Virus record (IMG/VR): IMGVR_UViG_3300048446_000089
Span: 1-26,304 of that record
Strand: one strand, 5' to 3'
Source: a virus
Length of the DNA stretch: 26,304 nt
The notes below the pieces were generated by a model, which saw only the letters and a list, made by a program, of their open reading frames with translations, did no database searches and was not told the origin of the DNA. This document shows positions 20,001 through 26,089 of the stretch, piece by piece. Numbering within the stretch: position 1 is the first letter of the stretch; every line of letters starts with the position of its first letter. Made by a program: the position numbers and the translations under genes.

Positions 20001-22979
20001 TTAGCGGAGTGTACGGACGCCTCTGTTGTTATAGGTGCCTTCCCAGCTGTATCCAGTGATGGAGGAGGGGAAAGGATCAGGGGCCTTGATAGTCAGTTGG
20101 GTGATGTTACCTGGAGAGAAGATCGGCATAGTTGCCTCTCCTATCTCAGCTACAGGGACTGCGTTGGCATCATAGATGTTGGCGGGGGTGATCTCAATGT
20201 TTTGAACAACATCATCATACCCAAGCCTAGAAAGGGTAACCTTGTATCGACCTGAGTAATACAAATCAAAGTGGACAAAGGAAACCATAGGGACGTTCAC
20301 CCTATCTGCCTTGTTGTCAGTTGTGAGGAAGATAGAAGGTAGTGAGACCACCGACTCATAACCACAACCCACAACATAGTCAGTATCAACCATATCCGTC
20401 CTCACCTCGGCATAGTGACCAGTACCGTCCTCTTGAACAACTAGGTCAATGAAACCACCAGCATTAAAACCAGTCGTTGTTATCAAGGTGTAGAGTTGAT
20501 CAGCTATGAATGTATCAGCGTTAAACCTAAGTAAGGAGACACTGGGCTTAGTTGGACTAACCTCAAGGGTTGTGTTGGAGTTCCCAAGAGCAATATCGAC
20601 CCTAGGTGAGAAGCTAGAGAATCCTACATCCAGGGGAGCCTGGCTAGGATCATCTGTCAGCTCTGACTTACACAGGATGAACTTGGAGCCGTCATACATG
20701 ACTGTGTAGAACAGGTCATCTTCAGCTGCAAACATCTTAATCTGAGCTGGGTACAGCCAGCGTGTCCAGCCTGCTAGTTGACGCTCATCACCATTGTTGA
20801 AGAACTTGAATACATAGACCTCATCAGTTCCCTCTCCATAGGCTATGAGGTTGTTATTAGGGAACACCTCACCCCATATAAAGGCTGGTGGTAGATACTC
20901 AGGAATGACCCTTGTAATATCTGCCACCTGGGGACGGTTCTCAACTGAGTCAACTGCCATCTCCATGACCTTGGAGTAGGTCTGGCTCTCTGAAATGAAG
21001 GAGATCGATACCCCGGAGTTCAAAGGGAGGACCTGAGAACGGTAGAAGTAGTTACTGATCTCAGTCATCTTCACAGTAGACGAAGAGAATGCAATTTCAT
21101 TTGACGCAAGGAGGAATTGACTCCTCTCTGCAAATAGAACTAAACCTTTTGGGGTTCCTACAACACCTTTTAGGATTGCAGGGATAGTTGAGGAGGCTGT
21201 AAGGTCGATAGGATCTGCATCAGAAATAGCGATAGCAGAAGTCTGGAAGAAGTTGAAGTAGTCTCCAGGTTGAGACATGATCACAGCATCTTCCGATAAG
21301 AAGCCTAGGCGGTTAGCAAAGAAGAAGAGGTTTGAAATACTCCTATCCACAAAAGAGGGTTCAGGGTTAGTTGTCTCATCCCCTACCTCTCTTCCAGCCC
21401 AACCACCAAACGCACTAGACGTATTCAGAGCATCCAACGTGAAGGAGCCATCAGCCTGCCGTATGAGGGCGTGAGGCATTGTTGAGCTGTTAACCGATGT
21501 CTTTATACCAGGAGCCACTGTCTCAGCCCAAGAGCCTGCTCCAGGGATACCAGGGGCCTCAGTCTCAAACTTGACGTAGTAGTCATCCGCTTCAGCCTCT
21601 TCAGTATTGTTAACCTTGACCACATAGCCATCAAAACATTGATTAGGCAGCTCTGCTACATCTCGGGCAATACCCTTGATGACAGTCATTGCCTTGTTAG
21701 TGACACCTCCCCTAACACCTAGGTTGAAGTCTCTCCCTGCTGTATTGGTGATCTTGATGATGTTACCAACAGTCTCAGCAGAGAAGTCTGCGATGGCATT
21801 AATACCAGTAGCCAGGTTAGCAACCACTTGACCAACGTCTAGGGTTCCTGCACTGGTATCAACAGGGGTTGTATAACTAGCTGAACCAGCACTGTTATAG
21901 GCATAGACGAAACGCTCCGCAGTGACACGGATTGTATAGGAACGTCCATTCAGACTTACGGTTGCAGTTTGGCCTACACGCCAGCCCACACCACCATTTA
22001 ATAGTTGCACGTCAACTCTATGCCGAGACATGTACTTGGCATCTGAGAAGGATCTTAGCTCCTCCTCTAGGACAAGTACCCTACCACCATAGTTGTCAGT
22101 GAGTTCCTGATCCACCCTGCTAGGTCTATCTTCCCACACAGAATCATAGACATCACACTTAAAGAGGGGGAACCCTGAGATCCAGTCACCCTTGAAGCCA
22201 TCAAACTGAGTCTTGGCCCGAGCCTCCTCTACGTTAGATGGTGGAGATACATAGCCGACTTTCTTGACCCGACGCTGGATGGAGTTACCACCCACCAGAT
22301 AAGGAGTACATTGATTAACTAATCTAAAAGATAGACCATTGGCTACTGTGAAAGTCTGGGCACCTGATTGAGCACAACTACCACCATCATCTAAGTCGTA
22401 TGAACCTGGGATAACTTCAATAGCTGTAGCTGAGTAGACCTTGTTAGGAGCAGCAGCACCGTCGTTAGATAGGTCAATGTTGTAAGTAGTGTTATAAGCT
22501 ACCTGATCAATGGCCACCAAAGCAGCTTTAGCCACAGCTGCACTGGTGTCCGTATTCATTGACACCTTGGCATTGGTGTTTGTGATTAGCGTGTAATCAG
22601 CCACAGAGATCTGTTCTACTGTGTTCTGATTAGCTCCACTAAAGTACGCACTGGCACTCTCACTGATAGTCACTGTTCGTTCAGTTCCATCATTCAGATC
22701 CCACACCCTCAGGGTTAGGGTTGGATTACTGAACATAGCTACAGCGTATCTTTCTTGGTTATCCCTAAAGATAGGGAACCAACGTGCATCAGCTGGTACA
22801 GGATCAGCCGAGGTGGCTAGGGTGTTAATGTACTTACTACCAGGCCTCTTACGGCAACCAAACGTAGGATCTAGGTAGACGTTATCAGCTGCTCTTACCT
22901 GGCCCGGCAGCTTCACTGGGTCTGGTTGTTGACTTACCCCACCTAGTAGGTTGGGGATTTTCTGGGAAACTGCTGCCAT
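20001..22979 (-). CDS. Tail tubular protein B / nozzle (gp12-like)
   Basis: The 992-aa protein is the T7 gp12 equivalent (794 aa), forming the tail nozzle below the adaptor ring. The N-terminus is highly typical: SQKIPNLLGGVSQQPDPVKL, then VRAADNVYLDPTFGCRKRPG. The rest is beta-rich, with RLGFLSEDAVIMSQPGDYFN near residue 560 and a long C-terminal beta region ending YSWEGTYNNRGVRTLR, all consistent with the family. It starts at the ATG at 22979, two bases after the stop of the adaptor gene, so the two are coupled. It is about 200 aa longer than in T7, probably from inserted beta domains in the first half. Confidence 0.96.
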   Translation of the reverse strand: MAAVSQKIPNLLGGVSQQPDPVKLPGQVRAADNVYLDPTFGCRKRPGSKYINTLATSADPVPADARWFPIFRDNQERYAVAMFSNPTLTLRVWDLNDGTERTVTISESASAYFSGANQNTVEQISVADYTLITNTNAKVSMNTDTSAAVAKAALVAIDQVAYNTTYNIDLSNDGAAAPNKVYSATAIEVIPGSYDLDDGGSCAQSGAQTFTVANGLSFRLVNQCTPYLVGGNSIQRRVKKVGYVSPPSNVEEARAKTQFDGFKGDWISGFPLFKCDVYDSVWEDRPSRVDQELTDNYGGRVLVLEEELRSFSDAKYMSRHRVDVQLLNGGVGWRVGQTATVSLNGRSYTIRVTAERFVYAYNSAGSASYTTPVDTSAGTLDVGQVVANLATGINAIADFSAETVGNIIKITNTAGRDFNLGVRGGVTNKAMTVIKGIARDVAELPNQCFDGYVVKVNNTEEAEADDYYVKFETEAPGIPGAGSWAETVAPGIKTSVNSSTMPHALIRQADGSFTLDALNTSSAFGGWAGREVGDETTNPEPSFVDRSISNLFFFANRLGFLSEDAVIMSQPGDYFNFFQTSAIAISDADPIDLTASSTIPAILKGVVGTPKGLVLFAERSQFLLASNEIAFSSSTVKMTEISNYFYRSQVLPLNSGVSISFISESQTYSKVMEMAVDSVENRPQVADITRVIPEYLPPAFIWGEVFPNNNLIAYGEGTDEVYVFKFFNNGDERQLAGWTRWLYPAQIKMFAAEDDLFYTVMYDGSKFILCKSELTDDPSQAPLDVGFSSFSPRVDIALGNSNTTLEVSPTKPSVSLLRFNADTFIADQLYTLITTTGFNAGGFIDLVVQEDGTGHYAEVRTDMVDTDYVVGCGYESVVSLPSIFLTTDNKADRVNVPMVSFVHFDLYYSGRYKVTLSRLGYDDVVQNIEITPANIYDANAVPVAEIGEATMPIFSPGNITQLTIKAPDPFPSSITGYSWEGTYNNRGVRTLR

Positions 22980-24078: not shown

Positions 24079-25080
24079 TCAAGCAGCCTGAAGTGAACCG
24101 GCTACGGAGACACGGAGTGAATCAGCGCCCATAGCCAATTTCCCAACAATCAGGTCCCCTTGGAATTGCACATGGAAGTCCCCTGAGGTGGTCTCGATGG
24201 AAGGAGCAACAGCTTCAACACAACCAGCAGCTTCACGGTGGAAGACAAGGCCAGCAAGGTTGGTGTTATCGATCACGTAGTCATTCTGCTCGCCAGCCAC
24301 AGCAGCATTAGCTGTAGCGTCTTTGCCATACTGACCAGCAAGGACGTTGGACTTATAGATACGAATACCAGCGATGGAGTACAGACCCTTACCGCTGTTC
24401 ATGTCACCCTGAGTGTTACCGATTTCACGGTTCAGGATGTTTGTATCAACAGAGGAGATCAGGCTGTAGTACTGACGAGGAGACAGCACTGCAACGCGGC
24501 CTTCCTGAGGAGCAGAACGCTCGTCAAGGACAGCAGCTGACTCGAAGAATCCATCAACGATTGCCTGAGCGTTGTTGGTGTTACCAGCACCGATGTTGAC
24601 CTGGAAGCCACCGGGCTCACCAGTTACCACTGAAGACTCAGTAGCAGCTTTACAGAGGACACGTGCAAGACGGTCATCATAGTGAAGGGCAAGAGCCTCA
24701 CCGATCTGCTTGGAGATCTCCGAGCGGGAGGACCACTGGCTCAGAAGCTCATCTAAATCATATACAAACTGACTAGATACGAGAAGGTCATCCATCAAGA
24801 TCGTTTTCTCATTGCTTTTCAGGCCATCTGCTGGAGCGATAGCAGTACCAGGGGTGTGGTATCCGCTAGAGAGCTTACCAGTCAGCAAGAACTGCTTGCT
24901 CTTACCACCACGGAGGGAGTAGTTGCGGATCAGTCCTTTGAAGATTGTAGCGTCATTGAAGGCATTGAACACTTCGCCACTGAACAGCTTAAGAGCGGTT
25001 GCATAACGAGTGTCATAATTCTGGGAGGGAGTACGTGACCCATCGGCTACGTTGTTACCCTGGAATGAAGTAAAAGTCAT
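24079..25080 (-). CDS. Major capsid protein (gp10-like)
   Basis: The 333-aa protein is close in length to T7 gp10A (345 aa) and has the HK97-fold outline of the family: an N-terminal arm (MTFTSFQGNNVADGSRTPSQ), then LFSGEVFNAFNDATIFKGLI, GKSKQFLLTGKLSSGYHTPG (extended-loop region), the long helix SRSEISKQIGEALALHYDDR, and VAVLSPRQYYSLISS in the A domain. The gene lies between the scaffold gene and a strong terminator, as in T7. The ATG at 25080 has no good Shine-Dalgarno sequence, unexpected for the most abundant virion protein, so expression may rely on a strong promoter and a structured, processed 5' leader in the 163-nt gap upstream. Confidence 0.97.
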   Translation of the reverse strand: MTFTSFQGNNVADGSRTPSQNYDTRYATALKLFSGEVFNAFNDATIFKGLIRNYSLRGGKSKQFLLTGKLSSGYHTPGTAIAPADGLKSNEKTILMDDLLVSSQFVYDLDELLSQWSSRSEISKQIGEALALHYDDRLARVLCKAATESSVVTGEPGGFQVNIGAGNTNNAQAIVDGFFESAAVLDERSAPQEGRVAVLSPRQYYSLISSVDTNILNREIGNTQGDMNSGKGLYSIAGIRIYKSNVLAGQYGKDATANAAVAGEQNDYVIDNTNLAGLVFHREAAGCVEAVAPSIETTSGDFHVQFQGDLIVGKLAMGADSLRVSVAGSLQAA

Positions 25081-25243
25081 TAATCTAAAATGTTAAGAGG
25101 TAGACATGTATTGGTCAGTCGTTCTAGAACTATGTAAGTTTTGACTATTTAGGCCATAGTCAGGGCGCTAGCACCCAAAGAGTTGTCCAGCGTACTGGGC
25201 TCAAAGGGCAAGGACTAGGAGGAGAGTCGAACTCCTCAACTGA
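25081..25243 (-). promoter_or_regulatory. Structured capsid leader (candidate promoter/processing region)
   Basis: The 163-nt gap corresponds to the T7 gene 9-10 gap, which holds the phi10 promoter and an RNase III site. Visible on the minus strand are GAGGAG-TTCGACT-CTCCTC (25237-25219), CCAG-TACG-CTGG, a near-palindrome around GCTAGC, GACTAT-GGCCTAA-ATAGTC, and the palindrome GTTCTAGAAC. No known phage promoter consensus is recognised. A promoter here is inferred from context. Confidence 0.5.
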
Positions 25244-25276
25244 TCAAAGGAGATCAGTGCTCCGAGCTAGCCTGGC
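25212..25276 (-). other. tRNA-like fold across the scaffold stop codon
   Basis: In tRNA order the minus strand shows TA then GCTC/GAGC (D stem, 4 pairs), A, CTGAT/ATCAG (anticodon stem, 5 pairs), TTG, and AGGAG/CTCCT around TTCGACT, a perfect T arm. Faults: the D loop is one base, the anticodon loop is eight bases, and the outer arms pair at only three or four of seven positions. It cannot be a working tRNA. It may be a decayed tRNA copy, a tRNA-like processing signal, or chance. Confidence 0.35.
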
Positions 25277-26089
25277 TTCCACATCGTTGCGGTAAGCCGG
25301 ATCATTCTGGTATCGTGGATCAGCTATCGCACGACTCAGCTCAGCATGTGAGCGGAAGACTTTAGCATCAGAAGATGGAGCTTTCTTCCCTGTGACCAGG
25401 GGAGCCTCATATCCTTCAGCAGACTTGTAGCGGCTACTGAGGGCCTCGACTGCAAACTTGATAGCAGCAACGTTGCCACTGTTCGTGACTTGGTTGTAGC
25501 TCTCAACTTCAGCAGGATCGAGGTTAGCTGCTGCCCATTGAACCATCTGTTGATAGGACTCTTGTCCACCTACAGAATCAAGGATAGCTTTCTCAGCCTC
25601 AGCTGTGACTGCTTGAGTCTTAGCTGCCTCTTGGTTGGCAGCATACTGGGTCATGTAGGCCTTGATGAGGTCCTTGCTATCCAACTTGGAAAGCTCCTCG
25701 ATACTTTCTTCAGTCAGCTCACCCTTCGACAGGTAGGCTTCAGAAGCGCGAGTAACAGCAGCTGCTGCTTCAGAGACTTCCTCCTCAGACTCAGGCTCTT
25801 CCTCAGGGGTCTCTGTAGGCTCCTCAGAGGGCTCCTCAGCTTCTTCAGGTGTATCCTGTCCTAGCTTACGTTGGAGCTCCTCATAGGCCTTTACAAGGTC
25901 ATCCTGGGACTTGAACTTACCAGCAATCAGACCAGCCTCTTCGTTAGCTGCTTCAGTCTCAGCATACTTACGAGCACGATCTTCTTCTTGGAGCTTAGCG
26001 ATCTTCTCGCCTTGCTCTAGTGCAGCAGTCTCAGCTGCTTGTTGCTCAGCGGATGGACCCTCAGAAGGATCGAATACGGTGGTAGGCAT
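25244..26089 (-). CDS. Scaffolding protein (gp9-like)
   Basis: The 281-aa protein sits immediately before the capsid gene, like T7 gp9 (307 aa), and should direct prohead assembly and then leave. It has the family's typical composition: a helical N-terminal part (AEQQAAETAALEQGEKIAKL), the segment LIAGKFKSQDDLVKAYEELQ, a very acidic Glu/Pro tract at about residues 78-105 (EEAEEPSEEPTETPEEEP), more helix, and a basic C-terminal part (DPAYRNDVEARLARSTDLL) likely to contact the capsid protein. The ATG is at 26089, three bases after the upstream stop. The last codons overlap the tRNA-like arms at 25212-25276. Confidence 0.95.
   Translation of the reverse strand: MPTTVFDPSEGPSAEQQAAETAALEQGEKIAKLQEEDRARKYAETEAANEEAGLIAGKFKSQDDLVKAYEELQRKLGQDTPEEAEEPSEEPTETPEEEPESEEEVSEAAAAVTRASEAYLSKGELTEESIEELSKLDSKDLIKAYMTQYAANQEAAKTQAVTAEAEKAILDSVGGQESYQQMVQWAAANLDPAEVESYNQVTNSGNVAAIKFAVEALSSRYKSAEGYEAPLVTGKKAPSSDAKVFRSHAELSRAIADPRYQNDPAYRNDVEARLARSTDLL

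Follow-up and report, generated by a model that had tools for sequence, protein, structure and literature searches.

A compact tRNA-like element precedes the capsid gene of T7-like cyanopodoviruses and probably serves as mRNA punctuation

What kind of RNA structure lies between the scaffold and capsid genes of cyanobacterial T7-like phages, and could it part the two messages? The window analyzed here is a 26,304-base virus record from IMG/VR, in which we examined the minus-strand junction between these genes. It belongs to a T7-like cyanopodovirus, a marine cyanobacterial phage, whose scaffold and capsid genes have relatives in S-CBP42, S-TIP28, P60 and Syn5. The scaffold protein gene (25244..26089, minus strand) was assigned from its open reading frame and its resemblance to the counterparts in P60, Syn5 and S-TIP28, and the major capsid protein gene lies at 24079..25080 on the same strand. 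A sequence-only reading had pointed to tRNA-like arms straddling the scaffold stop codon. The arms are indeed present at that place on the minus strand, and our analysis confirms that the window element is a tRNA-like RNA, more complete than it had appeared.

The compact fold spans positions 25272-25208 (minus strand), with further hairpins following in the capsid 5' UTR, and consists of a 6-bp acceptor-like stem, a tiny D-like hairpin, a hairpin with the stop codon, a T arm and an unpaired C-UU. The acceptor arms had been said mostly to fail. Instead, GGCTAG (25267..25272, minus strand, within the last scaffold codons) pairs with CTAGTC (25213..25218, minus strand) to form P1, a stem of 6 bp including one G-U pair. 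The 3' strand of P1 abuts the T arm (P3) without a gap, and P1 stacked on the T stem gives 6+6 = 12 pairs, as in a tRNA. P3 itself, GAGGAG-UUCGACU-CUCCUC (25219..25237, minus strand), comprises strands at 25237-25232 and 25224-25219 and the loop UUCGACU at 25231-25225; this loop had been read correctly, but its stem has 6 bp and not 5. Both the 12-bp acceptor/T stack and a TTCRANY T loop (TTCGACT) are therefore found, with the stack divided as 6+6 instead of 7+5.

Between P1 and P3 lies the anticodon-like hairpin P2, ACTGATC(TCCTTT)GATCAGT (25239..25258, minus strand). The CTGAT/ATCAG stem recognized earlier extends to 7 bp and closes a loop of 6 nt rather than 8 bases, and the scaffold stop TGA (25246-25244) falls in this loop as previously noted, at its edge. 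The last scaffold codons encode the 5' strands of both P1 and P2. A 4-bp GCTC/GAGC D stem, as first proposed, is rejected because its loop would be 1 nt; a mini D-like hairpin GCU-CGG-AGC (25259..25267, minus strand), with 3 bp, a 3-nt loop and its first G shared with P1, is likelier in view of the class-wide covariation between T loop and small loop described below. The GG of its loop is presumed to be the G18G19 partner of the T loop. A canonical D arm and a 7-nt anticodon loop are both missing, and the anticodon-like loop, of 6-8 nt, varies in relatives. On the 3' side, a discriminator-like C73 and the conserved U74 and U75 (25210..25212, minus strand), which read A-U-U in most relatives, mark the presumed 3' cleavage site; no CCA is present 3' of the element. 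A terminator was also considered and ruled out, because the T arm is not followed by a run of U.

Default ARAGORN and Rfam searches of the window, including the Rfam tRNA model, gave no match, and ARAGORN relaxed to an 85% threshold called a 66-nt tRNA at the element. We then scored the top half of the fold, that is, T loop, T stem and continuous P1. The score of the window element was equalled in 3 of 20,000 dinucleotide shuffles, and no second site on either strand of the window attains it. Covariance model R1, built from 14 elements that all come from other phages, recovered the element with 21.8 bits (E = 1.7e-4) as its sole significant match in the window, the runner-up having E = 2.9. 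Models R2 and R3 were also run against the window. The top match of R3 (20807-20850, minus strand, E 0.026) lies within a tail gene, has an E of 2.9 with R1 and was taken as chance.

Lack of covariation in close relatives had been named as the result that would overturn the tRNA-like interpretation. Covariation is present. In alignment A1, which holds the window's own type with 14 relatives, the 12 acceptor and T pairs are paired in 98.2% of cells, with 25 double-change (compensated) cells vs 7.1 after shuffling; none of 500 shuffles scored as high, and the signal is lost when the pairing partners are slid. Double compensatory changes occur at 5 of the 6 pairs of P1, and the 6 pairs of P3 are 100% kept, with double changes at 3 of them. 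The type 1 alignment, A4, behaves similarly (97.8% paired; 38 double changes vs 10.7 shuffled, 0 of 500 shuffles as high). Over all types, 58 distinct elements are 96.6% paired at positions 61-72 vs 69% when shuffled, with 211 double changes vs 62, although these raw counts are inflated because P1 was chosen in each sequence for its complementarity. The MAFFT-based alignments A1 and A4 and the shuffle controls, including the dinucleotide shuffles of the top-half score, are less prone to this bias. Of the other MAFFT alignments, A2 mixed geometries and was dropped, and A3, A5 and A6 mis-registered P1; none of them fed a model.

As for P2, its own strands form 6-7 bp in all 11 relatives compared, as against an average of 4.0 bp for mismatched strand combinations. 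The 3' strands, located beyond the scaffold stop, track synonymous codon changes (CTA/TAG, TTG/CAA, CTG/CAG). Since these strands are noncoding, protein conservation cannot account for the pairing. The junction thus carries a conserved fold with covariation, as expected of a tRNA-like element.

Its geometry is also constrained. Elements differ in where the T stem ends and P1 begins (5+7, 6+6 or 7+5), and the stack comprises 11, 12 or 13 pairs in 24, 26 and 8 elements, respectively; the 11-pair stacks, about 40% of elements, often have a U-U mismatch at the 1-72 position. Exactly twelve nucleotides past the T loop, A73 is found in 70% of 78 elements, followed by UU at 74-75 in over 90% of them (about 85-94% across the counts of distinct elements), and the exact AUU occurs in 37 of 58. 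Two further features were not imposed as such by the search pattern: the pair G53-C61 never changes, and 95% of elements have a pyrimidine at position 60. A 12-bp length of acceptor plus T stem is thought to be the ruler of RNase P, which also cuts hairpins consisting of acceptor and T stem alone (PMC11143913).

In the tRNA elbow, residue 19 pairs with residue 56 and residue 18 contacts residue 55, and RNase Z likewise reads this elbow (PMC4810234). Among the phage elements, a UUCRA T loop goes with GG in the small D-like loop (often UGGU) and a UGCRA T loop goes with AG (UAGU, UUAAAG). A blind rule relating T-loop class to GG or AG gave 30:3 vs 1:14, leaving 30 elements unassigned, including that of the window, where it failed to select the D-like hairpin. 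At least 15 changes of T-loop class can be counted on the capsid tree, and 5-6 phylogenetically independent pairs changed in the same direction and 0 in the opposite one (p about 0.03). This fits a swap of G18-U55 with A18-G55 while G19-C56 stays constant, which would be a three-dimensional contact. At the level of sequence, a D-loop/T-loop elbow contact is supported in the family.

How widespread the element is was assessed on 173 distinct capsid-upstream stretches gathered by searching IMG/VR for scaffold and capsid and by adding isolates; 85 of them pass the top-half threshold vs 3 of 3,460 shuffles. Class counts refer to the 151 distinct cyanopodovirus junctions with a reasonably close capsid, 17 labels being assigned by eye. 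A T-loop element is present in 94 of these (57 of the UUC class, 32 of the UGC class and 5 others), a hairpin motif that we call type B in 44, tRNA-Gly in 3, and none of these in 10. In each of the 17 wholly examined isolates, the region about 110-220 nt 5' of the capsid gene holds a T-loop element, type B or tRNA-Gly; carriers of the element include the model viruses P-SSP7, Syn5, P60 and S-TIP37. The capsid slot of NATL1A-7 is occupied by a genuine tRNA-Gly(UCC), as are those of L354 and L370.

For 18 more distant T7-like junctions, there was no T-loop element among the scan results listed; another distant junction (L081) has a tRNA-Arg. Rfam searches of 18 relatives returned the glutamine-II riboswitch and a group I intron and no tRNA-like family. 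An IMG/VR scan for a T loop, a variable gap and ATTG yielded, among the matches listed, mostly true tRNAs and at least two further cyanophage copies. One record, L403 (IMGVR_UViG_2896843662_000006), has three T-arm plus ATTG matches inside 1.4 kb, near 1457, 2324 and 2785; these are possibly decayed tRNAs, at least two of which escape tRNA calling.

The element is not confined to the capsid slot. Whole-genome searches of isolates found nine extra copies in seven isolates (E below 0.004), at 1003 and 2560 in P-SSP7, 8798 in P-SSP2, 1275 in S-CBP2, 1323 in S-SBP1, 1439 in S-TIP37, 23720 (minus strand) in NATL1A-7, and 43084 and 43721 (both minus strand) in NATL2A-133. All nine are located at gene boundaries; five overlap the stop codon of the preceding gene, and after most of them come UUG and a further hairpin. 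A weak R3 match at 27071 in S-SRP01 (E = 0.002) is also in a capsid upstream region. In L394 (P-SSP7 975-1085), L395, L396, L636 and L638 a hairpin with an ACTGA/AATGA-like loop comes directly after ATTGC; such a hairpin would become the 5' end of a cut message.

Type B has its own covarying 9-bp stem with the cap CACCTCAG[A/T]GTCGGA, sits in the same pre-capsid slot and is followed by ATTG, with (A)UU 10 nt past the motif. Examples among the 44 relatives that carry it are L390 (NATL2A-133 24208-24250, minus strand), L382 and L105. It matches no Rfam family, and its core may resemble part of the peptidyl-transferase region of 23S rRNA. On the capsid tree, exchanges between type B and the T-loop form number at least 20. 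Type B may be an alternative means of presenting the same cut site, or it may indicate an enzyme that lacks tRNA specificity; since it occupies 44 of 151 junctions with the same AUU, the job of the slot may not require a tRNA shape.

Other structures surround the element. Downstream, the capsid 5' UTR of the window has a hairpin, GACTAT-GGCCTAA-ATAGTC (25143..25161, minus strand), which was read by eye; in the relatives its stem is variable and the GGCCTAA loop recurs. Of 18 scanned relatives, 10 have a glutamine-II riboswitch (RF01704) in the scaffold-capsid region (L003 at 2080-2132, L024, L030, L044, L049, L102, L105, L110, L141 and L035), the window being without one. A conserved pseudoknot-like motif, CTTCCGG...ACGGTTTAAGGA...GGAAG, is located directly 5' of the element in many type-1 and type-B relatives (about 1683-1745 in L005). 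It has a weak opposite-strand match to PhotoRC-I (E 0.56), and a tie between this motif and the PhotoRC-I family, whose model may describe the opposite strand, deserves attention.

What might the element do? We think it somewhat probable that it is a compact precursor-tRNA mimic in the late mRNA, placed between scaffold and capsid to be cut, a function we infer from these comparisons. Host RNase P would recognize the elbow and cleave 5' of P1, which in the window is within the last scaffold codons, and RNase Z or RNase E would cleave at the AUU. Scaffold and capsid messages would be parted in this way, and the capsid mRNA would gain a defined, structured 5' UTR. The tRNA-like interpretation is strongly supported by the covariation of the stems, the fixed geometry, the covariation of the elbow and the genuine tRNAs that some relatives carry in this slot; because of this evidence and the copies at other gene boundaries, recognition by RNase P and RNase Z is plausible. 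The RNase Z family is present in Synechococcus elongatus. Because the window form overlaps the scaffold stop, a ribosome finishing the scaffold would melt the fold, and, more speculatively, cutting may compete with scaffold translation.

A broader proposal, which we advance tentatively and at slightly less than even confidence, is that tRNA punctuation extends across a clade of cyanobacterial T7-like phages, with interchangeable cassettes marking message boundaries for host RNase P and RNase Z. These cassettes would comprise genuine tRNAs, mini-tRNA mimics whose co-varying elbows come in two types, and type B presenting the same cut site. They would sometimes span the upstream stop codon, making translation and cutting compete.

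A tRNA-like fold could also work uncut, by blocking exonucleases, forming the 3' terminus of the scaffold message or binding a protein that recognizes tRNA. We hold this to be rather unlikely: the structured hairpins downstream in the capsid 5' UTR and the unrelated-looking motif occupying the slot in 44 junctions would suit a stability or binding element, but the constant 12-nt distance of the (A)UU from the T loop, and substitution by a genuine tRNA, which needs excision to work, fit cutting better. It is improbable, in our judgment, that the slot serves another host or phage nuclease, such as RNase E acting at the AUU or RNase III acting on the long helix, tRNA likeness being then one of several ways to place about 10-12 bp of helix ahead of the AUU. 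RNase E prefers single-stranded AU-rich sites, and the covarying 9-bp stem of type B is likewise accompanied by (A)UU; both are in favor of this option, which leaves the T-loop/D-loop covariation and the genuine tRNAs unexplained.

The sequence-only reading had also entertained a relic of a host tRNA gene, for example a former attachment site. Real tRNA genes do occur at the slot in three relatives, and attachment sites often use tRNA 3' halves. A genome scan with the 17-mer of the T arm matched at least 80 loci in diverse bacteria, with no cyanobacterium among the matches listed. However, the stems differ among phages yet remain paired, and single genomes carry similar elements at several gene boundaries; a relic is therefore unsupported and, in our view, very improbable. 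Arms formed by chance, with the scaffold C-terminus conserved as protein only, would be compatible with the coding nature of the 5' strands of P1 and P2, but not with 3' strands that follow synonymous changes past the stop codon or with the rarity of equal top-half scores among shuffles, and the probability we give to this explanation is close to nil.

Cutting by RNase P and RNase Z, as we propose here, has parallels in other systems. Mammalian mascRNA and menRNA (RF01684), the 3' elements of MALAT1 and MEN-beta, likewise combine an acceptor stem, a reduced D arm and a T arm in a long transcript, and they are cut by RNase P and RNase Z. The Syn5 copy aligns to RF01684 with E = 0.015 and 23.4 bits, far under the gathering score of 42.5, and the window has no match to this family; the likeness is therefore one of analogy. 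Mitochondrial tRNA punctuation also relies on tRNA folds between genes, whose removal would release the messages, although those are real tRNAs, whereas the phage elements are mostly mini-tRNAs without anticodon function, some of them over stop codons. The RNase III sites of T7 are intergenic hairpins that set message ends, likewise in a T7-like phage, but they are irregular duplexes that lack a T loop and a fixed 12-nt spacing. The C4 antisense RNA of phages P1 and P7 is a regulatory RNA of temperate phages and is not known to form a tRNA-like family kept at gene boundaries. C4 is an example of a phage RNA that RNase P processes, and tRNA-like structures of the TYMV type are cleavable by RNase P in vitro (PMC11143913, and cited therein). 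These plant-virus structures are also viral tRNA mimics; they are aminoacylated 3' ends of RNA genomes, whereas the phage elements are internal to the mRNAs of DNA phages.

No prior description of the element was found in Rfam or in the searched open-access literature, the scope of our search being limited to these sources. The element represents a new family of tRNA mimics, probably serving as mRNA punctuation, and we know of no earlier conserved family of gene-boundary tRNA mimics in DNA phages. It provides a natural series of minimal candidate substrates for RNase P and RNase Z, in which the elbow takes two alternative forms. In addition, it opens to test how phage mRNA is processed in hosts without a demonstrated T7 RNase III scheme, and how cyanopodoviruses come to make far more capsid than scaffold, which is a long-standing question.
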